A stretch of 11,634 bases of DNA, from assembly GCA_003152795.1 (NCBI GenBank), contig PMBA01000403.1, forward strand, positions 1 to 11,634, in the 5' to 3' direction. Below the pieces are notes generated by a model. It worked only from the letters and a program-made list of their open reading frames with translations, was not told the DNA's origin and searched no databases. Positions 323-11,634 of the stretch are shown here, in pieces. The stretch comes from Acidobacteriaceae bacterium (lineage in GTDB: Bacteria > Acidobacteriota > Terriglobia > Terriglobales > Acidobacteriaceae). Position 1 is the first letter of the stretch. The number at the start of each line of letters is the position of its first letter. A program made the position numbers and the translations under genes.

Positions 323-790
323 CTAGGGTTCACCGGCCGGATTGGGGGCCTGCCGCTTCACAAATTCGAAGGTGCAAGCGCGGCCTACAATGCCGAGGCC
401 TTCGTCCCTGGTGCCTGTGCCTTCGGTCTCTTTGAATTGGGCCTTGATGTTGTAGCTGTAATCCTCGCCCTTGCGGGCGAAGACTCCACGGGCATATTTT
501 CTGGAGGCGACGATGCCGGTGGCAGACAGCTTGGCGCTGCCGTTCTCGGCGATTTTGCCTTCGATGAGCAGGTAGCCGGGTTCCCCGGCGGTGGCGCGCT
601 CTCCGTGAAAGTCGCTGTTCTGGATGACGCTCGGAAACTGCCAGGTGTAGCCCTCGGTGCTTCCTTTTGGAGGGCAGGTGAGCTTGGTGAGCCACTTGCC
701 ATCGAAACGCCCCCCGGCAACCGATTGGGACAGGGCATGGCTGCCGCTCAGCAGGATGAGTCCAGCCAAAACGAAACTAAGTCTGCGCAT
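323..790 (-). CDS. Secreted protein of unknown function, 155 aa
   Basis: The start is the ATG at 790, preceded by GGAGGT (complement of 794-799) at short spacing. It begins a signal peptide: MRRLSFVLAGLILLSG, then a likely cleavage site around SHALS-QS. Longer in-frame readings upstream to 1072 lack a comparable ribosome site and would bury the signal peptide. The mature part (about 130 residues) opens with a FDGKWLTKLTCPP motif, contains many alternating polar and hydrophobic stretches (SYNIKAQF, GYLLIEGKI), and ends near RACTFEFVKR, which looks like a small all-beta fold. Cys residues in TCPP near the start and RACTF near the end could form a disulfide. It resembles uncharacterised small secreted proteins with an FDGxW...TCPP opening that I recall from Proteobacteria and Acidobacteria; no function is known to me. 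It is expected in the periplasm. Confidence 0.82.
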   Translation of the reverse strand: MRRLSFVLAGLILLSGSHALSQSVAGGRFDGKWLTKLTCPPKGSTEGYTWQFPSVIQNSDFHGERATAGEPGYLLIEGKIAENGSAKLSATGIVASRKYARGVFARKGEDYSYNIKAQFKETEGTGTRDEGLGIVGRACTFEFVKRQAPNPAGEP

Positions 791-1292: not shown

Positions 1293-1606
1293 ATCCGGGC
1301 TTGTTGAAAGCCACCACGGCGGATGGTACCGGCGCCGGCATTGCAGCGAGGGGGAAGTCTGCGTTTTTTCCGGCTTTGCGGCTGACCGATGAGTTGCTGC
1401 AAGCAGTTACGTGTAACCAGTACGACGATACCTTCCGGTTGCAGCCCGCCGGCATGCGAAAGCCTCCCGCGCCCACTTTCTCAGTACTTTCGTAACTCTC
1501 GGTCGGGCAGTTGAAGGCGGTATTCTAGCTGTTGATTCTCCCCCTTGTTCTTAGGCAAATCCACATTTTAGGTGTAGTGCGGCTTGTCACCGCGGGGACA
1601 AATGTA
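1293..1606. other. Intergenic region upstream of the pseudokinase gene, 314 bp
   Basis: No credible gene is seen; the short open frames here lack ribosome sites and recognisable sequence. It holds a weak hairpin GGCTT-GTTGA-AAGCC (1298-1312) just after the small peptide gene, without a T-run. It also holds a self-complementary CCGGCGCCGG (1329-1338), an inverted repeat GTTAC-GT-GTAAC (1406-1417), and the near-palindrome at 1584-1601. A -35-like TTGTTC (1545-1550) is followed after 17 bp by TTAGGT, a poor -10, so no promoter is called with confidence. Confidence 0.5.
1584..1601 (+). promoter_or_regulatory. Near-palindrome over the pseudokinase ribosome-binding region
   Basis: TTGTCACCGCGGGGACAA is an 18-bp palindrome with a single mismatched pair: TTGTC/GACAA arms around a CCGCGG core. 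It ends five bases before the ATG at 1607, and the only Shine-Dalgarno-like stretch (GGGGA, 1594-1598) lies inside it. It could be an operator for a dimeric repressor, or an mRNA hairpin that masks the ribosome site. The sequence alone does not separate these. Confidence 0.35.
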
Positions 1607-4165
1607 ATGGCGACGATGTTTGGCCGGTTCGAAGTCCAGAGTGAGCTTTCGAGGTCGGAGACCGCCTTGATTTATAAGGCGATGGACACGGAAACGAATC
1701 AGGTGGTGGCGCTCAAGACGCAGAATCTGGAGCCTTTGGGCGACCGCGCGGATAGGTTTGTGAGCACGCTGATCGCGGAAGGGGAGAGCACGCGCGATCT
1801 GGTCAGCCAGAATATTGTCCTGCTCTATGGCGCCGGCGAGATCGACAACCAGTACTGCGCCGCAATGGAGTACATCCAGGGCAACAGCGTTGCCACCATG
1901 CTGGAGCGCAAAGAAGGTTTCTCGATCTGGGATCTGCTGGACATTACCCGCCAGGTTTGCGCAGGTCTGGAGCACGCGGCGGCAAAGGGAGTGGTGCACT
2001 GTTCGCTGGAGCCCGCCAAGATCATGGTGCAGTGGGACGGGATGGTTAAAATCCTGGGCTACGGCATCTCGAACATGAGCCTGATCGAGGCGGAATCGGG
2101 AAAAGGTCTGGGGCGTCTGATGCCCTACTGTTCTCCGGAACAGATTCGCGGCGAAGCCATCGACATGCGTTCGAACCTGTTCAGCCTGGGCACGATTCTT
2201 TACGAGATGGTGGCGGGCCGGCAGGCCTTCGACGCCGCCGATCCGGTTGCGCTGGTGAGCCAGATTCAGAACGAGATGCCCGCCAACCCGGCTACGGTAA
2301 ACGCCAAGATCCAGCCGGGGGTGGGCGCGCTGATTATGAAAGCGCTGGCGAAAGATCCGGCGAAGCGCTATCAGAGTGCGCGCGAACTGGTGGATGACCT
2401 GGAGAAGTGCAAGGACAACAGCGCGAAGGCTGCCACTGATCCCAAGCCGGCGGCATCGGCGGCGAGGGTTGGGGTGGATTCGGCAGCTCGCCGGGCGGCG
2501 GAGAGCAAGTTTGTTACGGCAGCGAAAAGCGCGGCCAAGCCTGAGCGTCCGGCAGCGCCGGTTGCGCCGAAGCCGATTTCTCGCGTTGCTCCTGGGGCCG
2601 TTTCCGCCAAGCCTGTTTCCGCTGAGCCCGTTTCACCAAATACTGTTACTCCGCGAATCAGCCCGCCGGCGGCTTTGCGGACCCCTGCCGCCGCGACCGA
2701 AACCAGAGCCAGTTGGGCGGCTGCGGGCGCTGCGCCGGGAGGGAACGCCACGGGCGCATCCCCTTTGAATCATGGTTCAGACTTGCGCTCGGAATACCGC
2801 TCGGAGTCCGGGGCGCGGATGATCAGCGAAACGGAAGCAAGCGCCCCCCAATCCCAGACCGCGCGCGGCCCGGTTTTATCGGCGGCGATGGTGGAGGAGA
2901 AACCGGAGCGGCAATCGAGGCGCGTGGCGGTTGATCCGGCGATGTCCGAGCCCGCGGCGGGTTCTTCGGGCAGGAGTTTTTCCGATCTGGCGGAGATGCC
3001 ACCGCTGCAGGAACCGGCTTTTACACCGACGGTTCACGAAGCGGCAGAGACGTCGCATCTGGTGGCGCAGATCAAACCGCGAGCGGAAGAGAAACCAAAG
3101 ATGCAGCCGCGGGAAGTCGCAGAGAAGGCAATCCGGCAAATCGTGACGGTTCCGCCGCGACTGATGATCTATTCGATCCTGGGCGCGGTTGGACTGATTC
3201 TGGTGATTGTGCTCGCGGTCTTCTTTCATGTGCGCTCGGAAGACGACGGTTCCACGGCGGCGCCGCGGCCGACGAAAGTCGCCAGGCAAGCCCAGCCGGC
3301 TACGCAGAATGCAGGCAGCCAGAAGCCGGCAGTTTCGCTGGGGCCGGTTTCCGAACCCGCTCCGCGGCTGACCGTGCGCGCGGTCGAAAAGCGCAGTGCG
3401 AACAACGCTCGCCGGGCGCCCGCTCCAGTTCCGGCGCCGGTCGCGATCCCAATGGGAGAGGCGCTGATCGACTCCAGCCCGCCGGGCGCGCAGTTTCAGG
3501 TCGATGGAAAAACCGATCCGGCGTGGGTTACACCGTTTAACGTGGCGGGGCTAAGTCCGGGTAAGCACATCGTGGGCGCGAGCAAGACCGGTTACTCGTC
3601 GGAGATACGATCGGTCGAGGTTGCGGCCGGCAGCAAAGCATCGCTGACGTTTCATTTGTCGCCGGTCAATGCGCTGGTGGTGGTGAACAGCACGCCGGCC
3701 GGGGCCGAGGTCGTCATCGACGGCAGGCCTACCGGACGAGTCACCCCGGTGCAGTTTGCGGTGGAAAAAGGAAGCCACACAGTTCTGGTGCGCAAGCATG
3801 GATACCTGGACGAGACGGTCACTGCCGACCTTGGTCCGGCGCAGAATTTCCAGTACTCGCCCGCGCTCCGGGCGCTGGGCAATACTGAAGCCATGCGGAC
3901 GGTCGGCAAGTTCAACAAGCTGTTCGGACGCGGAGGAGAGAACACAGTAGGCATGGGTTCCATCGCAATTCACACCCAGCCCAAGGGCGCACAGGTTGCG
4001 ATCAACCAGCAGGTCCTGGATAAGCTAGCGCCCGTGGATGTCATGCTGAGTCCGGGGAACTACATCGTGGATATCACGCTCACCGGTTTCAAGCCGGTCC
4101 ACAAAGTCGTCAGCGTCGACAAAAGTGGCAAGGTTGCGATCGACGAAATTCTCGAGCGGCAATAA
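1607..4165 (+). CDS. Membrane-spanning Ser/Thr pseudokinase with three PEGA domains, 852 aa
   Basis: Residues 8-270 have a bacterial Hanks-type (PknB-like) kinase fold. The VAIK-type Lys (ALK, K37), alpha-C Glu (E58), MEY hinge (87-89) and SPEQ (176-179) are kept. The catalytic parts are not: the glycine loop is SRSETA, HRD is HCS (131-133), the catalytic-loop Lys and Asn are E135 and K138, DFG is GYG (151-153), and the F-helix Asp is N190. It should not transfer phosphate and would act as a scaffold or nucleotide/ligand sensor; a search would probably label it a protein kinase. A Pro/Ala-rich linker (about 280-515) leads to one TM helix (520-541). Outside the membrane are three PEGA repeats (about 617-686, 687-755, 784-852), each with a PxGAxxxxxG-type opening; such domains are often linked to envelope or surface binding. 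ATG 1607 fits the start of the fold; an in-frame TTG at 1532 adds 25 unrelated residues, and ATG 1616 is an alternative. Confidence 0.9.
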   Translation: MATMFGRFEVQSELSRSETALIYKAMDTETNQVVALKTQNLEPLGDRADRFVSTLIAEGESTRDLVSQNIVLLYGAGEIDNQYCAAMEYIQGNSVATMLERKEGFSIWDLLDITRQVCAGLEHAAAKGVVHCSLEPAKIMVQWDGMVKILGYGISNMSLIEAESGKGLGRLMPYCSPEQIRGEAIDMRSNLFSLGTILYEMVAGRQAFDAADPVALVSQIQNEMPANPATVNAKIQPGVGALIMKALAKDPAKRYQSARELVDDLEKCKDNSAKAATDPKPAASAARVGVDSAARRAAESKFVTAAKSAAKPERPAAPVAPKPISRVAPGAVSAKPVSAEPVSPNTVTPRISPPAALRTPAAATETRASWAAAGAAPGGNATGASPLNHGSDLRSEYRSESGARMISETEASAPQSQTARGPVLSAAMVEEKPERQSRRVAVDPAMSEPAAGSSGRSFSDLAEMPPLQEPAFTPTVHEAAETSHLVAQIKPRAEEKPKMQPREVAEKAIRQIVTVPPRLMIYSILGAVGLILVIVLAVFFHVRSEDDGSTAAPRPTKVARQAQPATQNAGSQKPAVSLGPVSEPAPRLTVRAVEKRSANNARRAPAPVPAPVAIPMGEALIDSSPPGAQFQVDGKTDPAWVTPFNVAGLSPGKHIVGASKTGYSSEIRSVEVAAGSKASLTFHLSPVNALVVVNSTPAGAEVVIDGRPTGRVTPVQFAVEKGSHTVLVRKHGYLDETVTADLGPAQNFQYSPALRALGNTEAMRTVGKFNKLFGRGGENTVGMGSIAIHTQPKGAQVAINQQVLDKLAPVDVMLSPGNYIVDITLTGFKPVHKVVSVDKSGKVAIDEILERQ

Positions 4166-4467: not shown

Positions 4468-4932
4468 GTGTTCTCGCAGCCCACGCCAGGCAAGTTGAGT
4501 CCGGATATGTTGCAGTCCCTCCACGGAATAAAATCAATTCGGCTGTTTCCCCGGGGCGTCCTGTTGTTTGAGCAGGGATCCGCGGTAACGGGTGTGTACG
4601 TGGTGGAGCGCGGCGAGGTTCGTGTGCTGCTGTCGACGCCGCAGAGTCAGAGGCAACTTCTGGAGGTTGTCGGCCCCGGAACCATGTTGGGGCTGAGCGA
4701 GAGTATGAGCGGGGAAAATTATCGGATCAGCGCGGAGGCGGGCGAGCAAACGACAGCGGCCTTCATTCCGCGCGAGAAGTTCCAGGAGTTTCTGCGCGAA
4801 CACGGCGATTTCTGCATGGAAGTTGTGCGGCTGTTGAGCGAAGACTTGCACTCGCTTTACCACAAATTCCGGAGCATCAGCGCACATCCGGGGCGCCCGC
4901 GGCACCGGCCGTTGGATGAGCAGCTGAATTAG
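4468..4932 (+). CDS. Crp/Fnr-type cyclic-nucleotide-binding-domain protein lacking an HTH, 154 aa
   Basis: The start is a GTG at 4468 with AAGGAG (4455-4460) seven bases upstream. Residues about 22-115 form a cNMP-binding beta-roll, with the family signatures LFPRGVLLFEQGS (26-38) and GVYVVERGEVRVLL (42-55). Residues 118-140 match the long C-helix (dimerisation) of Crp/Fnr proteins. The usual winged helix-turn-helix, about 70 residues, is absent: the protein ends with a short basic tail (GRPRHRP) and DEQLN. The phosphate-binding cassette is not canonical (GLSESMSGENYRISA, 75-89); R86 might contact a phosphate, but the RS/RT pair of true cAMP receptors is not clear, so ligand binding is uncertain. 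It is cytosolic and probably acts through protein contacts rather than DNA. No HTH remnant is evident before the repeat element that begins at its stop codon. Confidence 0.85.
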   Translation: MFSQPTPGKLSPDMLQSLHGIKSIRLFPRGVLLFEQGSAVTGVYVVERGEVRVLLSTPQSQRQLLEVVGPGTMLGLSESMSGENYRISAEAGEQTTAAFIPREKFQEFLREHGDFCMEVVRLLSEDLHSLYHKFRSISAHPGRPRHRPLDEQLN

Positions 4933-5066: not shown

Positions 5067-6839
5067 CTAATTCGCTTTGAAGTTGACCGTGATCTGGGTC
5101 TGAATTTCGACGGGCACGCCATCCAGATAATACGGCTTGTATCGCCATTGGTGAACAGCTTCCATTGCGGCGCGCGCCAGACCTGGATCGCCGCTGAGCA
5201 CCTTCAGATTGGTGACGTTGCCCTCTTTGTTGATGGTGGCTTCGATCTGCACTGCGCCCTTGGTATGAGACGCGAGCGCGGACTGCGGATACTTAGGTTG
5301 TACCTGCTTGATCAGCAGTCCATGGGACACACCCTGCGAAATTCTTACCGTTGCCAGCGAAAGCCGGGGAATACTTGACGATGCCGAAGACATCAGGCCG
5401 CTCAAGTTGCTGTCGTTTGCGGACGCAACGGCGAGCGGACTGGGAAGCGATGTCGAGGACTCCTCGGATTGGGTCTGCGTCCTCCCAGCTGTGGCCATCG
5501 GCTTGCCGGCGACATGCGAGGAATCGGGTTTCTTGCTTGCCGGCTGAGGATTGAGCGCGATCGTGATCGAAGAATCGTCAGTGCCAGTCGATGCCTTGTC
5601 GAGCGCTGCCGCAGTTGCTGTTTTGGAAGCGGAGGACGTTGCGGAACCCGACCGGCGGGTGGTGCCCGTCGAAGGCGAAGCTACCGGGGCAGAAGCGGGC
5701 GAGGGGTCTGGCGCGGGTCGTCCCGAGTCCTGAATCGCGCTTGCGGGCTGTGGAACCGGGGCTGTGCTGGACTTTCCCCACGTGCCATAAGCAAAGTAGG
5801 CGAGCACGGCCAGAGCCAGGACAATCACAGCCGCGATCATGATCTTCCTGTTGTCGTTCGATCCGGTGGAATCCTCTTCGCCGAATGCTTCAAAGGACGG
5901 AGCATCGGCGGCGTTCAGCGAACTGAAAACTGGAAATGGAGAGACATCGTGCGACGGATTGATGTGCGGCGGATCGCCATGCGATGGACTGGTGTGTTCC
6001 GGGGCAATCGTGTTCTCGGGCGATGGCGGATACGGCACCGTTCTTGCCTGAGCCGGTGCAGCGGCCGATCCCGGGACTGACGAAAGAGCGGGACTCGGAT
6101 TGTGAACTGGCGAGGCCGCGGCCACATTTCCTGCCGCTTCGTTCATGATTGCGTTGTTCTTGGCCGGGTCGTGGTTGATCGCCGGCGCGAGCGGGAACGT
6201 CGTCTGCGCTGGAGCCTGGGTTGGGGCTGCGGGTACTGGCACAACAGGCTGGCTGTCCTCAAGTTTTGCCGACGCGGTCACGGCTGGAAGGCCACGCAGG
6301 GGCGATTCCGGCAGAAGGGGAGGTTGAAATTCGGGAAGCCCGGTTGGGCCTGGCGATGGAGCAATCGGTGCCGCGCCTCGACTCGCAGGTTGGAATGAAC
6401 TGCCGGAGGACGCATGAGCCGGTTTTCCGGGGATAGCAGCAGCATTCGCGGCGGCGCCGGCATTGTCTGAGTTTTTCCGCAGCAGGCCGCGCGCGACCCG
6501 CAACGTTCCTTTTGCCTGCTCCACGTTCACCGGCTTGGTGAGTACCAGGTTGGCGCCGATGCGGTAGGCCTTGGCCACGCCCGCTTGTCCCTCGACCAAA
6601 GCGATGGCCAGCGAGCTCTGATTGGAGCTGGAATTTCTTGCGCTTTTAAAGAGCAGGGAAGCGTTCTGTTCGTTGTCGCAGTCCACAACAATGGCGTCGT
6701 AACGCTGCGCCATCAATCTCTTGACCGCGGCAAACGGTTCATGAACCGGGTCTACGGAGAAATCCAGTTCGCTGAACACCTGACTGATGACGCGAGCCAG
6801 CCTTTCGTCAGGGCAGAAAAGTAGAGCTTGGTAACCCAT
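5067..6839 (-). CDS. Receiver-domain-TM-TonB C-terminal fusion protein, 590 aa (copy 1)
   Basis: Residues 1-118 resemble a response-regulator receiver: an acidic pair D11/E12 after the first strand, phospho-acceptor D53 (IVVDCD), and K102 in LTKPV. The usual Thr/Ser switch after strand 4 is replaced (ALVEG, 80-84), so signalling may be atypical. I recall similar receiver-like N-termini in acidobacterial PilZ proteins. A low-complexity Pro/Ala/Ser linker (about 125-330) leads to one TM helix (332-353), then a second linker and a TonB C-terminal domain (about 505-590) with KYP (516-518), the GNV turn and WRYKP (565-569). The receiver would be cytoplasmic and the TonB domain periplasmic, reaching an outer-membrane partner. 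No ExbB or ExbD is present. It is a paralogue of the neighbouring gene at 6991-8619 and has its own matching promoter. No good Shine-Dalgarno precedes the ATG at 6839. Confidence 0.87.
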   Translation of the reverse strand: MGYQALLFCPDERLARVISQVFSELDFSVDPVHEPFAAVKRLMAQRYDAIVVDCDNEQNASLLFKSARNSSSNQSSLAIALVEGQAGVAKAYRIGANLVLTKPVNVEQAKGTLRVARGLLRKNSDNAGAAANAAAIPGKPAHASSGSSFQPASRGAAPIAPSPGPTGLPEFQPPLLPESPLRGLPAVTASAKLEDSQPVVPVPAAPTQAPAQTTFPLAPAINHDPAKNNAIMNEAAGNVAAASPVHNPSPALSSVPGSAAAPAQARTVPYPPSPENTIAPEHTSPSHGDPPHINPSHDVSPFPVFSSLNAADAPSFEAFGEEDSTGSNDNRKIMIAAVIVLALAVLAYFAYGTWGKSSTAPVPQPASAIQDSGRPAPDPSPASAPVASPSTGTTRRSGSATSSASKTATAAALDKASTGTDDSSITIALNPQPASKKPDSSHVAGKPMATAGRTQTQSEESSTSLPSPLAVASANDSNLSGLMSSASSSIPRLSLATVRISQGVSHGLLIKQVQPKYPQSALASHTKGAVQIEATINKEGNVTNLKVLSGDPGLARAAMEAVHQWRYKPYYLDGVPVEIQTQITVNFKAN

Positions 6840-6848
6840 AATGAGGTC

Positions 6849-6890
6849 ATCCTAGGTAATGCGGTGGGTACCAGCAAGTTACGTGGGTAA
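6849..6890 (-). promoter_or_regulatory. Promoter and TTAC-N4-GTAA palindrome of receiver-TonB copy 1
   Basis: Read on the minus strand: the palindrome TTACCCACGTAA (complement of 6879-6890), one base, -35 TTGCTG (6872-6877), a 17-bp spacer, -10 TAGGAT (6849-6854), nine bases, then the ATG at 6839. The same parts with identical spacing precede the paralogue at 8619. The -10 is so close to the ATG that the transcript would start within a few bases of it, consistent with leaderless translation. Confidence comes from the duplicated layout, since each hexamer alone is only a moderate match. Confidence 0.5.
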
Positions 6891-6911
6891 TAAGGATGGC
6901 CGACGTGGATG

Positions 6912-6981
6912 GTCGTTTGTCATTGGAAGTGGGTCGTTCGCAGCTTGGCGGATTCCCCGGACGACTAAACGACGAACGACT
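6912..6981. repeat. Intergenic heptad-repeat element with inverted arms
   Basis: The left arm (6912-6939) can be read as four 7-mers: GTCGTTT, GTCATTG, GAAGTGG, GTCGTTC, the third degenerate. The right arm (6960-6981) carries ACGAC three times at spacings of 8 and 7 in the opposite sense. GTCGTTCG (6933-6940) pairs perfectly with CGAACGAC (6973-6980), and GTCGTTT (6912-6918) with AAACGAC (6967-6973). It follows the stop codon of the upstream receiver-TonB gene and precedes the promoter of the next, so it may act as a terminator or insulator. Its construction parallels the element at 4931-5045 with a different heptad. Confidence 0.5.
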
Positions 6982-6990
6982 GTTCTGCGT

Positions 6991-8619
6991 TCAGGGTTTT
7001 TGAAAGTCGACGATCACGACCGTCTGGAAGGGCTGAGCCTTGCCATCGCGGACGTAGGGCCGATAGCGCCATTGCTTTACCGCGTCGATGGCGGCGGTTG
7101 CCAGGACAGCGTCTCCATCGACCAGTCGCACGCCCTGAACCTTGCCCGTCTCATCAACGACTTCCTTGAGGACGACCGTTCCTTGTGCTTCTCCGGAACG
7201 CGCGTCGACGGGATATTTCGCAGGTATGCTGTGAGCCAGGCGTTTCTCAGCACCCTTGGACGAGAGAATAATCGCGCTGTTCTCCCCGGGCAGCGGAGTG
7301 TTGGACGAAGTCGCAGCAGCGGTGTCTTTCTTGCTGTCGCCAGGCTTGCCGGCTTCGGTTTTAGCGACCCCCGATGGAACTGCGGTGGCGGCAAGGGAAT
7401 TTGATGCGGCAACTGCCGTACCCGGAGTCGTGGTGGTCTGGACAGGAGCAGCCACGGTGGCGGAGGTTGCGGGTGAACCTGTTGCGGGAGTGATTGCTGA
7501 GCTGGTTGCCGGTTCGGGGACGGCCGATTGTGTCTGATGCGGATCGGGCGCCGGGGCCGAATTGGCGGCTGGAGCCAGGCGAGCCGAAGGTTTTGCGGGA
7601 CTTGGCGCCGAAGCCGGCGGCGGTGCCATTCCGGCGAGGGCCAGCACCCGATCAATCTGCGGTTGGGCGAGGGCCCGGAATCCGGGCTGGTACATCCATG
7701 CGGCATAGAAGCCAACGCCGGCGAGAGCGAGCACGAGCAAGGCGACGAGCGGGCCGCGGGTTTTCTGCTGGCCGTGCTGGTACGACGAAAACACCGGGGC
7801 AGCAGACTGGGCTGCCACTGGAACTGGCTCTGCTTTTTCGAGTCGCGAGCTTTCCAGTTGGGATTCCGCAAGCTCGGCGCTCTCGAGTTCAGCGAGCACC
7901 GGATCGTCGGAAGGTTTTAAGGGGCTTGCGGATTTCGAACGCACGGAAGCGGATCGATCCAAAGAAAACTCTGCCACCGATGACGGTGAAAAGGAGGCGG
8001 TTTTCGGACCGGAACCTGGAGTCACGGGCGCGGTAGTGGCTTCGGCGACTGCGGACTGCATCTTCATCGAGCGGGCGGGTCCGGACAGCGTCGTTGTGAC
8101 GGCGCTGGGAACACAGATTGGAGCGGGGTCGGCAAAGTTCGTCAGCTGCGGAGAAGCGGTTGCCGCGGCCGCTGCCTGCTCGTGCTGGTCGCTCATGATT
8201 GTGCTGGGAAGGACCGCGCTTGCCGGTTGCTCGGGGACATTCCCCTGGGGCGTGTCTTTCCGCACCCGGCCGACAGCCGTGCGGATGGTGCTTCGGGCCT
8301 GGTCTTTCGCGACCGGCTTGGTCAAGATCAGTTCCGCGCCCAGGCGAAATGCGGTGGGCAAACCGGCGCGGCCATCGACGATGGCAATGGGGACCGGGTT
8401 GTTGCCGTTTTTTCCGCGGCGGCAAACGTCAAAGATCAGCTTGGCGGCGGGAAGATTCTCGCAGTCGACGAGCACCAGGTCGAAACTTTGCGAATTAAGC
8501 TTGTGGGCAGCAGATACTCCGTCCAGGGGACGTTCGCAAGTTACTGACATTTCGTCTAACACGCCAGTAATTGCATTGACTGCCTGGTCATCCGGCGACA
8601 ACAGCAGGGCATGAGGCAT
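6991..8619 (-). CDS. Receiver-domain-TM-TonB C-terminal fusion protein, 542 aa (copy 2)
   Basis: Same plan as its neighbour. A receiver-like domain (1-115) has acidic pair D10/D11, phospho-acceptor D52 (LVLVDCEN) and K101 (ILTKPV); the switch Thr/Ser is again missing (AIVDG). A Pro/Ala/Ser linker (about 120-285) precedes one TM helix (291-312). A second linker rich in Ala, Pro and Thr leads to a TonB C-terminal domain (about 455-542) with KYP (468-470), GTV, a GKV turn and WRYRP (517-521). The two proteins share clear similarity in the receiver and TonB ends and almost none in the linkers, as expected for an old tandem duplication. Predicted topology is receiver inside, TonB domain in the periplasm. 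It may couple phosphorylation or ligand state to an outer-membrane transporter. ATG 8619 has no proper Shine-Dalgarno (GAGAG sits only 4 nt away). Confidence 0.87.
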   Translation of the reverse strand: MPHALLLSPDDQAVNAITGVLDEMSVTCERPLDGVSAAHKLNSQSFDLVLVDCENLPAAKLIFDVCRRGKNGNNPVPIAIVDGRAGLPTAFRLGAELILTKPVAKDQARSTIRTAVGRVRKDTPQGNVPEQPASAVLPSTIMSDQHEQAAAAATASPQLTNFADPAPICVPSAVTTTLSGPARSMKMQSAVAEATTAPVTPGSGPKTASFSPSSVAEFSLDRSASVRSKSASPLKPSDDPVLAELESAELAESQLESSRLEKAEPVPVAAQSAAPVFSSYQHGQQKTRGPLVALLVLALAGVGFYAAWMYQPGFRALAQPQIDRVLALAGMAPPPASAPSPAKPSARLAPAANSAPAPDPHQTQSAVPEPATSSAITPATGSPATSATVAAPVQTTTTPGTAVAASNSLAATAVPSGVAKTEAGKPGDSKKDTAAATSSNTPLPGENSAIILSSKGAEKRLAHSIPAKYPVDARSGEAQGTVVLKEVVDETGKVQGVRLVDGDAVLATAAIDAVKQWRYRPYVRDGKAQPFQTVVIVDFQKP

Positions 8620-8691: not shown

Positions 8692-10455
8692 TCAAGGAAG
8701 GGGCTGATCCTTTCCAAGCGCCGATTCCGGCCCCGGATAGACGATTGAACGACGGAAGGCTGACTTGTCGGCGGGCGCAAAATCGGGGAATGGCAGATTG
8801 TGCTGGTCCCGCCATTGCTGGACCTGGTGTTCGGCGGCGGCGGCTTTCTCCTTGTCGAGGCCGGAATCGCGCGAGAAGTAAAGGGTCTGGGAGGGGAAGG
8901 CGAAAGCGCTGCCCGATTTCCCGACGATGTCCATGATGCGCAGCAGCAAGTCTTCGCGGATGGCGGCGAATTCCACCGAATCGCGGGTAAGCACGTAGCT
9001 GGAGATCTCGAGACGCAAAGCGCTGTTATCGAAATTAGTGAAGCGGATGTATGCGCTGTCGCTTTCGACTTTCGGGTGTTGGTATAACAAGCGGCGGACT
9101 TCAGCCAGAAGATAGCGTAACTGGTCGGCGGTGGTCTCGCACCGTATGGCGAGCGCGGGATTGAACAGGATTTTGTCGCGGCGGGTGAAGTTCTCAATGT
9201 TCATGGTGGCGAGGGCGCCGTTTGGGATGGAAAGCTCGGTGCGGGCGTCGGTGCGAACCCGGGTGGAGCGCAAGCTGATGTCTTCCACGGTCCCGACGCG
9301 ATCGCCGAAGCGGCAGTAGTCGCCGACGCGGATGACTTCGTCGGCGAGGACGGAAATTCCTCCAAAGAGATTTTCGAGTGTTTTCTGGGCGGCGAATGCG
9401 ATGGCAATGCCGCCGATGCCCAGGCCGGCGAGCACAGTGGTCAGGTTAAAGCCCACGATGCCGAGGGTGGCCAGTATGGCGACGATCACCACCAGCGCTG
9501 CCAGTAAGCGCTCGCCGAGCACCATCAGGGTGCCGGTGCCGATGCGGCCCGCGTCGATGGCATGAACGCGCAGGCGCTGCATGGTGAGGCTGCTGGCGCG
9601 GAGCAGAAACCAGAAAAAGCCGATGCTGATGAGAACCCAGACGGTCCGGGAGTAATACAAACGCGGCAGCAAAGGCAGTCCGATGTAAGCGCCGATCACG
9701 CGGTGAGCTACGGCGCTGAAGGTGAGCAACAGCGGCTTGGACATGCGGCTGTAGGAGTGCAGGTTAGGGCGATGCCTGAGCTTGAGCCACAGCCGCCGCG
9801 GAATCGCCAGCAGCAGAACCACGGCCCAGCCGATGGCGAGGGCCACTGGAATCGCGGCGATCAACGCCAGCCATTGCCAGAGCGGCATCCCGAGAAACAC
9901 GTTCTTAACCAAGTTCTGCGGGAGCTTATTTTCGACCTGGTGAGCCTCAAGGTTGTCATACAGCTCAGGGACTTTGCTGAGCGTCTCGGAAGAGAAGAGC
10001 CAGATTTTTCCGGAATTCGGATCCCCAACCCGGACCAGGATAACGGGAACATCGCCATCGCTGCTGGAAAAAATGCCGATGGTCTGCTGATCGGGGTTGG
10101 CTTCGGGATTGCCTTCAGGACTGGTGCTGAGGCGCCGCAGGCTGCCCACGAAGGTGCGGTCCATGAGGACCTTCAGTTTGTCGGCCAAGTCCGGACCCTG
10201 CGACTGGCGGCGGGAGGTGCTCATCTGGAGATAATCGGCGGCGGTCTTGTAATTTCCGGACTGCGCGGCTTGCAGGAAACCCAGCACGGCTCCCGAAGGC
10301 GTCTCGCGGTCCAGCGGATCGGCGAGTGTGGGAGTTGGCGTCTGTGTCTGCGCCCCACCCTGCAGCAGGCTACTCACTGATTTGGCGACCGACTGGGCCA
10401 TCAGACCAGGGAGAAAAATAGAAACGACAAGGACTAATGAAGCTAGTTTTCTCAT
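8692..10455 (-). CDS. MscS-family mechanosensitive channel with exported N-terminal domain, 587 aa
   Basis: A signal peptide (MRKLASLVLVVSIFLPGLMA, 1-20) precedes a soluble extracytoplasmic region (about 22-185) with DRETPSGAVLGFLQAAQSGNY (49-69), a motif I associate with N-terminal regions of large MscS-like proteins. Membrane helices are expected at about 192-218, 241-266, 270-289 and 313-336. The pore helix (339-367) has the family-typical AGLGIGGIAIAFAAQKTLENL (343-363). It is followed by the MscS beta domain (VGDYCRFGDRVGTVEDISLR, 377-396; SIPNGALATMNIENF, 409-423) and an alpha/beta C-terminal vestibule. The role is release of small solutes or ions under membrane tension, in the inner membrane. 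The ATG at 10455 is preferred; a GTG lies immediately upstream at 10458. The ribosome site is weak (TTGGAA). No sign of truncation. Confidence 0.92.
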   Translation of the reverse strand: MRKLASLVLVVSIFLPGLMAQSVAKSVSSLLQGGAQTQTPTPTLADPLDRETPSGAVLGFLQAAQSGNYKTAADYLQMSTSRRQSQGPDLADKLKVLMDRTFVGSLRRLSTSPEGNPEANPDQQTIGIFSSSDGDVPVILVRVGDPNSGKIWLFSSETLSKVPELYDNLEAHQVENKLPQNLVKNVFLGMPLWQWLALIAAIPVALAIGWAVVLLLAIPRRLWLKLRHRPNLHSYSRMSKPLLLTFSAVAHRVIGAYIGLPLLPRLYYSRTVWVLISIGFFWFLLRASSLTMQRLRVHAIDAGRIGTGTLMVLGERLLAALVVIVAILATLGIVGFNLTTVLAGLGIGGIAIAFAAQKTLENLFGGISVLADEVIRVGDYCRFGDRVGTVEDISLRSTRVRTDARTELSIPNGALATMNIENFTRRDKILFNPALAIRCETTADQLRYLLAEVRRLLYQHPKVESDSAYIRFTNFDNSALRLEISSYVLTRDSVEFAAIREDLLLRIMDIVGKSGSAFAFPSQTLYFSRDSGLDKEKAAAAEHQVQQWRDQHNLPFPDFAPADKSAFRRSIVYPGPESALGKDQPLP

Positions 10456-10458
10456 CAC

Positions 10459-10608: not shown

Positions 10609-11634
10609 CTACTTCTTTGGACGGTAAATGTCGGTGGCCTGTCCGTAAAAGACTTCCGCCGCTTCCATCATCGTCTCCGACAGCGTTGGGTGCGGATGGA
10701 TGGTCATGCCGACATCGGCCGCCAGCGCGCACATTTCGATGGCCAGCACGCCTTCGGCGATCAGTTCGCCCGCGCCCGCGCCCACGATGCCGACCCCGAG
10801 CACGCGCTCCGTCTTCGGATCGATGAGCAGCTTGGTGAGACCTTCGGGCCGGTCGAGTGTGATGGCGCGTCCCGAAGCCGCCCACGGGAACTTGGCGACG
10901 GTGATCTCGCGTCCTTGTTCTTTAGCCTGCGTTTCGGTCAGGCCAGCCCATGCGATTTCAGGATCGGTGAAGACGACGGCCGGAATTGCGTTTGGTTCGA
11001 AAGCAACTTTGTGGCCGGCGATGGCTTCAACGGCGGTGCGGCCCTCATGCATTGCCTTGTGGGCGAGCATCGGTTCGCCGGCAACGTCGCCGATGGCGTA
11101 GATCGTCGGTTCAGCGGTCTGCCGCTGCTCGTTGATTTCGATGAACCCCTTTTGATTGACTTTGACTCTCGTCTTATCGAGGCCGGGAATCTCGGAGTTC
11201 GGACGGCGTCCCACTGACATCAGCACACGGTCGAATACCTGCTCTTTTTCTTTTACGTTGGGACCGTCGAGCGTGACGCGAATGCCAGTTTTCTCGTCCT
11301 TGAGCGACTTGACTGTCGTATTCAGCAGGATCGCAGAGAAAAGCTTTTCCAGGCGCTTGTGCAGCGGCAGCACTAGGTCGCGGTCGGCGCCGGGCAGCAA
11401 GCCGGGCATCATTTCAACGCAAGTCACTTTGCTGCCGAGCGTGGCGTAAACCGATCCCAGTTCCAATCCGATGTAGCCGCCGCCAATGACGAGCAGCGTC
11501 TTCGGAATGTCGGGCAGATCGAGAGCGCCGGTCGAATCCATGAGGCGCGGGCTGTCGAGCTTGAGGCTGGGCACAACCGTCGGACGCGATCCGGTGGCGA
11601 TGATGATGCGGTCGAAAGTCAGATTCTCTTCGCC
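10609..11634 (-). CDS. lpdA: Dihydrolipoyl dehydrogenase (E3), C-terminal 341 residues (5' end outside window)
   Basis: This FAD enzyme reoxidises dihydrolipoamide of pyruvate, 2-oxoglutarate or branched-chain 2-oxoacid dehydrogenase, or the glycine cleavage system, passing electrons to NAD+ in the cytosol. The visible part starts inside the FAD domain. In fragment numbering it shows ATGSRP (13-18), the NAD-binding GGGYIGLELGS (51-61), the second FAD motif IYAIGDVAG (about 167-175), and the dimer-interface catalytic pair in HPHPTLSE (313-320), with H315 and E320 as the acid/base dyad. Full-length enzymes have about 470 residues, so roughly 130 are missing, including the redox-active CxxxxC segment. 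The protein ends YRPKK. The frame is open to the last base of the window with no damage. The next gene in this direction is the channel, separated by the structured repeat, so they are probably separate transcription units. Confidence 0.95.
   Translation of the reverse strand, partial: GEENLTFDRIIIATGSRPTVVPSLKLDSPRLMDSTGALDLPDIPKTLLVIGGGYIGLELGSVYATLGSKVTCVEMMPGLLPGADRDLVLPLHKRLEKLFSAILLNTTVKSLKDEKTGIRVTLDGPNVKEKEQVFDRVLMSVGRRPNSEIPGLDKTRVKVNQKGFIEINEQRQTAEPTIYAIGDVAGEPMLAHKAMHEGRTAVEAIAGHKVAFEPNAIPAVVFTDPEIAWAGLTETQAKEQGREITVAKFPWAASGRAITLDRPEGLTKLLIDPKTERVLGVGIVGAGAGELIAEGVLAIEMCALAADVGMTIHPHPTLSETMMEAAEVFYGQATDIYRPKK

Follow-up and report, generated by a model that had tools for sequence, protein, structure and literature searches.

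What does a signalling fold do on a protein that ends in the C-terminal domain of TonB? The question is raised by two adjoining minus-strand genes of a soil bacterium of the family Acidobacteriaceae, here called open reading frames (ORFs) A and B. They lie on contig PMBA01000403.1 of assembly GCA_003152795.1 (4.72 Mb, 82% complete, 475 contigs), and the whole 11,634-nucleotide stretch that was analysed is referred to as the window. Our answer, which is tentative and to which we give slightly less than an even chance, is that A and B are parts of an adaptor across the cell envelope, built from signalling domains with altered catalytic residues, whose state would be read by binding. The parts of the two ORFs are as follows.

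5067..6839, minus strand: ORF A, 590 amino acids, in the order pseudo-receiver, linker, transmembrane helix, linker, TonB_C
6468..6839, minus strand: A residues 1-124, pseudo-receiver, with C9-P10 at the place of the acid pair, D53 as acceptor Asp, C54 and K102
5784..5849, minus strand: A residues 331-352, predicted membrane helix without Ser-x3-His (hydrophobicity, AF2 helix)
5073..5333, minus strand: A residues 503-589, TonB_C (Pfam, model, profile match)
6991..8619, minus strand: ORF B, 542 amino acids, with the same domain order as A
8251..8619, minus strand: B residues 1-123, pseudo-receiver, with S8-P9 at the place of the acid pair, D52, C53 and K101
7693..7749, minus strand: B residues 291-309, predicted membrane helix without Ser-x3-His (hydrophobicity)
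6997..7254, minus strand: B residues 456-541, TonB_C (Pfam)

The initial annotation had described two adjacent paralogues, each joining a receiver-like domain to one transmembrane helix and a TonB C-terminal domain, and this was confirmed by Pfam, fold and hydrophobicity. The proteins are paralogous at both ends (36% identity at the receiver end, 32% at the TonB_C end), and their middle parts can barely be aligned. TonB_C was matched at the C-terminus of both (E 7.5e-19 for A, 2e-14 for B), and the domain of A also matched solved TonB C-termini in profile comparison (TonB2, E 3.5e-13). At the other end, the receiver model PF00072 was matched below its gathering score (20.4 for A and 17.7 for B, vs 30.2); L013, a paralogue with PilZ whose receiver part is of the same family as that of A, scored 35.7 against the same value. 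The N-terminal domain of A has the (beta-alpha)5 fold of a receiver and not an unrelated fold. A single strongly hydrophobic stretch stands in each protein, between linkers that contain much Ala, Pro and Ser. The AF2 model of full-length A placed a helix at residues 330-351 and showed a confident TonB_C domain, with little confidence in the linkers. Matches at E <= 1e-3 numbered 3937 proteins for the receiver domain of A and 840 for that of B. A chance or frame artefact was rejected on the grounds of these many matching proteins and of selection that differs by domain.

The active site of the receiver was read in 89 A rows (the window and 88 relatives, five of which duplicate a protein already in the set). 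The acceptor Asp D53 is present in 87 of them and Lys at K102 in all 89. C9 stands at the place of the acid pair in 89/89 rows, with P10 in 83/89, and the pair is Ser-Pro in all 20 B relatives. No Ser or Thr was found at positions 80-83, the place of the switch residue, in any A row, and Val occupies the aromatic place at K-3 in 88/89. The full receiver set of acid pair, Asp, Thr/Ser and Lys is not present in A. The acid pair falls on C9-P10 by alignment with NtrC1 and on P10-D11 by alignment with RssB, according to where we take the pair to lie within those two proteins. Judged by their aligned residues, A under either register and B too are pseudo-receivers, because the definition given in PMC12632262 needs the loss of any one of the five active-site residues. 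The suspicion raised earlier, that A and B may be pseudo-receivers since they lack the switch Thr/Ser, holds, and the acid pair is altered as well. A and B resemble the atypical response regulators treated in the same article, which have a receiver fold without at least one active-site residue (PMC12632262). They differ from known pseudo-receivers in that their output is a membrane helix followed by a periplasmic-type domain. Phosphorylation or ligand binding might still take place at the D53 site, since the Asp and the Lys are conserved.

Two cysteines lie at the edge of the active site of A, C9 (window 6813-6815; 89/89 rows) and C54 (6678-6680; 84/89). Their conservation would suit a redox pair, in which C9 and C54 form a disulphide or a metal site that replaces the phosphorylation switch. 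B, however, has Ser at the place of C9 (20/20) and retains only the second Cys (19/19 rows with a letter), and we consider such a pair most improbable.

The helix was compared with that of energy-transducing proteins. In TonB and TolA, it binds the motor through the SHLS motif (PMC8928145, PMC12204202). Ser-x3-His was absent from the helix of all 89 A rows, of 115 A homologues and of 113 B homologues, these being the homologues of 500 amino acids or more among the best 120 of each; a His lies within or beside the helix in 5/89 A rows. The TonB_C protein whose gene adjoins exbB and exbD on contig C172 of the same genome served as a positive control, and its helix has Ser-x3-His. The genome contains 28 TonB_C matches in total, and the motif was also found in 2 of 20 further TonB_C frames (C419 and C444), a set which includes a third pseudo-receiver fusion. 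The window holds no match to ExbB or ExbD; the genome has ExbD at two places and ExbB at three. A and B are like TonB and TolA in having a membrane helix, a proline-rich or disordered span and a C-terminal strand-addition domain (PMC12204202). They are unlike them in their large cytoplasmic part and in a helix without the Ser-x3-His of the SHLS motif; TonB proteins are generally described as having no cytoplasmic part (PMC8262864).

These data bear on a regulated TonB, in which ExbB and ExbD would drive A and B while a distant histidine kinase phosphorylates D53/D52 and so switches energy to certain outer-membrane receptors. The clear TonB_C domain, the conserved D53 and K102 and the presence in the genome of ExbB/ExbD and of 16 Plug-domain matches speak for it. 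A phosphorylation-gated TonB is nevertheless not favoured, because the acid pair is altered, the Thr/Ser is missing and the helix lacks the Ser-x3-His that is present in the exbB/exbD-linked TonB and in two other TonB_C proteins; ExbB and ExbD also have no match in the window. Coupling to ExbB/ExbD was demoted as the leading reading on account of the motif missing from the counted homologues, and the tie to these proteins is not supported. The missing motif is not proof against motor coupling, since other helices might bind other motors. We rate a regulated TonB as quite unlikely.

Selection was estimated by a simple counting method for A only (11 rows of near relatives, two of them identical). 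The ratio of nonsynonymous to synonymous substitution rates (dN/dS) came to about 0.07 in the receiver and 0.17 in TonB_C; the helix gave 0.29, and the two linkers 0.40 and 0.43. Both folded ends of A are under purifying selection.

The receiver domain family of A has nine copies in the genome, down to E 5.7e-8. Two are A and B, five are fused to PilZ, one is a third TonB_C fusion (C224), and one is a frame with an unknown base and no visible output domain (L014). All nine keep D53 and P103, and either Lys or Arg occupies position 102. Two of the PilZ paralogues, L011 (C233) and L012 (C174), each of 392 amino acids, carry two PilZ stretches behind the pseudo-receiver according to Pfam.

That the same domain family precedes PilZ, a cytoplasmic output, in five paralogues of the own genome is consistent with an outside-in sensor, as is the finding that purifying selection is strongest at the receiver end. 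TonB_C would then respond to the state of a protein in the outer membrane, with the pseudo-receiver relaying it to cytoplasmic partners, perhaps those of the PilZ paralogues. Against this, the direction of the signal is not readable from sequence; we hold an outside-in sensor to be unlikely.

The adaptor reading draws in a third protein, encoded convergently to A.

1532..4165, plus strand: convergent neighbour, 877 amino acids from TTG (ATG at 1604), with a kinase fold, a transmembrane helix and PEGA repeats
1994..2071, plus strand: pseudokinase signature, HCSLEPAK for HRDxKPxN and GYG for DFG (alignment with solved kinases, 42 rows)
3176-3232, plus strand: predicted transmembrane helix of the pseudokinase (hydrophobicity)
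3449..4162, plus strand: PEGA region, residues 640-877, with three PEGA stretches (Pfam)

This protein matches Pkinase (E 3.4e-30) and PEGA (E 2.5e-30) in Pfam, and its catalytic loop HCSLEPAK aligns with HRDIKPQN of solved kinases. The 42 rows comprise the window and 41 relatives, with L178 and L175 being second fetches of L032 and L043. The Asp of HRD is replaced by Ser in 41 rows and by Gly in one; in all 42, the Lys of the loop is Glu, its Asn is Lys and the Asp of DFG is Gly or Ser. The Lys of VAIK is kept in 41 rows, the remaining one having a gap. The genome has 27 kinase matches; a motif script classed 22 as canonical and left four unread, and that of the window is not canonical. One of the four is the protein on contig C447, whose loop reads HGRIQPSN by eye. 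Since the Asp residues of both HRD and DFG are lost in 42/42 rows, the product of 1532-4165 looks like a conserved pseudokinase standing beside two pseudo-receivers, with catalytic activity unlikely from its residues. The proposal that phosphorylation of D53/D52 controls A and B is consequently not favoured: at least one acid residue and the Thr/Ser are gone, and the linked kinase-like protein appears catalytically incomplete.

A sample of 297 genomes from the whole phylum gave the domain of A at E 1e-18 in five, each belonging to the family of the window, and at E 1e-16 it occurs in 138 of the 398 genomes of that family. An orthologue of A (E <= 1e-45) is present in 102 of the 398, including the 24 listed for the genus of the window. 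Most of the named records are metagenome bins, under the labels Acidobacteria, Acidobacteriaceae, Acidobacteriales, Terriglobia, Terriglobales or Candidatus Sulfotelmatobacter. With thresholds of E 1e-45 for A and E 1e-70 for the pseudokinase, both genes occur in 94 of the family genomes, A only in 8, the pseudokinase only in 6 and neither in 290. They are thus together in 94 of the 108 genomes that have either, including genomes in which they lie apart; the listed completeness of the 8 and 6 exceptions is 59-91%. Fisher's test overstates the significance of this co-occurrence, because it treats the genomes as independent. Among matches fetched as a check on the pseudokinase threshold, none of the 13 above it has the HRD Asp: eleven read HxSxEPAK in the loop, one has Ala for Ser and one reads HKRLHPAN. 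The seven below it are all canonical kinases. Five genomes of a distant genus have an A receiver 65-70% identical to that of the window; four of them (G319, G376, G406, G424) hold the pseudokinase elsewhere, and in G440 it was not found by search of the genome.

Some unusual relatives were also met. L176 (G300:C5) and L177 (G332:C45) are more distant TonB_C fusions, with a receiver part 42% identical to A, from genera without an A orthologue at E <= 1e-45; TonB_C was checked in L176 only. In L089 (2377-4140, JABDHA010000150.1), residues 1 to about 371 of A are in frame with the PEGA tail of the pseudokinase. The whole pseudokinase was not found in that genome, which gave only the PEGA tail and ordinary kinase matches. 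This possible fusion was given no weight, because it was met only once, in a metagenome bin, and could stem from faulty assembly.

The remaining genes of the window are listed below.

4468..4932, plus strand: protein with a cyclic-nucleotide-binding domain, between A and the pseudokinase (PF00027, E 3.3e-18)
8692..10458, minus strand: MscS-type channel, a frequent neighbour upstream of B (Pfam)
10609..11634, minus strand: oxidoreductase gene resembling, by a name we presume to fit, dihydrolipoamide dehydrogenase; it runs off the window and is a frequent neighbour (Pyr_redox_2, Pyr_redox_dim)
323-790, minus strand: frame which, from an internal ATG at 790, resembles a small secreted protein, starting MRRLSFVLAGLILLSGS

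Neighbours were compared in 80 of the 102 confirmed loci, with genes called by a simple longest-frame rule. The common order is oxidoreductase, MscS, (B), A and then the pseudokinase on the opposite strand. Within 7.5 kb upstream of A, the oxidoreductase is found in 49 and MscS in 44 of the 57 loci with more than 4.5 kb of upstream sequence. The pseudokinase lies at most 9 kb from A in 34 of the 51 loci with more than 6 kb downstream, and the cyclic-nucleotide-binding gene is downstream of A in 14 of these 51, mainly in near relatives. Synteny alone was not used as functional proof, as near relatives keep gene order by descent. B does not always stand directly behind MscS, the gap between the two being about 2.3 kb in L060 and about 1.1 kb in L110. 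Many loci without B have a gene of about 200-230 amino acids, divergent from A, between MscS and A (for example L065:9264-9911 and L089:1643-2332, both minus strand); two examples gave no Pfam match at E <= 0.01.

Average identity to the window in loci without B is 79% for the receiver, 62% for TonB_C, 77% for the oxidoreductase and 51% for MscS; in the 20 loci with B, the values are 87%, 77%, 95% and 78%, the loci having been picked by receiver motifs, which biases the receiver figures upward. The receiver is therefore as conserved as the oxidoreductase only in loci without B (79% vs 77%), and the relation is reversed in those with B (87% vs 95%).

How, then, might these proteins work? Two altered signalling folds, co-inherited and each joined to one predicted helix and a periplasmic-type domain, and purifying selection on A lead us to propose an adaptor that acts by binding. 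A and B would be single-pass inner-membrane adaptors. Inside the cell, the pseudo-receiver would dock to another copy of itself or to some partner, for which it might use a conserved beta5-alpha5 side. Outside, TonB_C would add a strand to a partner in the envelope or the outer membrane, and the long linkers on either side of the helix would provide reach. A and the pseudokinase-transmembrane-PEGA protein, perhaps in direct contact, may form one trans-envelope scaffold for signalling or tethering, which B would have joined in some lineages. Information would flow by binding, with neither phosphotransfer nor ExbB/ExbD power.

Several observations weigh against this proposal. The co-occurrence of A and the pseudokinase is uncorrected for descent and stands without a control gene, so that both genes may just mark one clade. 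Only 18 of 75 loci have B immediately upstream of A, with a B-like copy in 3 of 75, and we regard A as the constant part and B as an addition because B adjoins A in so few. The five A loci of the distant genus show none of the neighbours described above (7.8 to 17 kb read). The near-invariant D53 and K102 argue against a wholly useless site, and 2 of the 13 fetched pseudokinase matches retain the Asp of DFG. Domain placement is not fixed by the AF2 model of full-length A (pTM 0.29). Finally, conservation by element is 0.99 for beta5, 0.96 for alpha5, 0.90 for alpha4 and 0.89 for alpha3 in 46 distinct rows found by whole-domain score. These rows served to repeat a measurement on samples biased by having been picked through the receiver domain or two motifs in it, although many come from the same contigs. 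The conserved beta5-alpha5 side is only suggestive, because the alpha4-alpha5 stretch scores equally well in 5 of 122 circular placements, counting its real one.

Among known architectures, the closest is that of GltG (PglI) of the gliding machinery of Myxococcus xanthus, an FHA-transmembrane-TonB_C protein which serves an envelope-spanning machine and whose binding to the motor AglR was seen by two-hybrid assay, as reported in PMC3169522. Like A and B, it combines a cytoplasmic signalling-type domain, a membrane helix and TonB_C in one protein. It differs from them in having FHA instead of a pseudo-receiver and in its gene tie to AglRQS/Glt; Glt genes were not searched for here. This precedent, together with an ExbB-like gene on contig C350 (a short contig on which ExbD has no match), would fit A and B being bitopic parts of an envelope-spanning complex for force or adhesion, pulled by an ExbB-like motor. 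However, the model of the AgmX/PglI C-terminal domain scored 17.8 bits for A and 14 for B, far below its cut-off of 40, and the motor-binding Ser-x3-His is missing. FHA had no Pfam match at E <= 1 in either protein. A Glt-like machine is in our view very unlikely.

No receiver-TonB_C fusion was recognised by title or abstract start among the papers listed in searches of open-licence literature. The word 'TonB' is absent from the main text of PMC4395418, and 'transmembrane' from that of PMC12632262. The combination of a cytoplasmic domain, a helix and TonB_C is known from GltG; a pseudo-receiver in that position, a helix that has lost the motor motif and a pseudokinase inherited alongside were not met in these searches, in which the pseudokinase was not searched for by name.

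Other TonB_C proteins of the genome carry a different domain across a hydrophobic stretch: GAF (C33, L151), PilZ (C244, L007:802-1731) and a kinase-like domain (C447, L149), the last being pseudokinase-like in its catalytic loop. They share with A and B the order of a cytoplasmic-type regulatory domain, a hydrophobic stretch and TonB_C, and differ in the sensing domain and in lying on other contigs. A and B are therefore members of a group in which TonB_C is combined with regulatory domains of cytoplasmic type. When 22 TonB_C domains from the genome were placed in a tree, 14 of its 19 inner branches stayed unresolved and no grouping emerged.

TonB is usually read as a power cable without a cytoplasmic domain, and here a signalling fold is welded onto it. 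A and B appear to be freed from phosphate chemistry and from the usual motor contact, and they are inherited with a catalytically altered kinase fold. The architecture is easily overlooked, judging by the names of homologues: among the best 120 homologues of A, the names that sources give, where there is one, are 'protein TonB', 'periplasmic protein TonB', 'TonB family protein' and, once, 'CheY-like chemotaxis protein'. It is doubtful, though worth stating, that one family of Acidobacteria co-inherits a phosphorylation-free module, in which a scaffold of pseudo-receiver/TonB_C and pseudokinase/PEGA proteins would carry state between the cytoplasm and the cell surface by binding alone, as one member of a larger group in which TonB_C is joined to sensor domains of the cytoplasm (pseudo-receiver, GAF, PilZ and kinase-like). 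The locus offers a concrete case for two questions, namely the role of pseudo-receivers and the purpose of TonB_C proteins beyond nutrient uptake.

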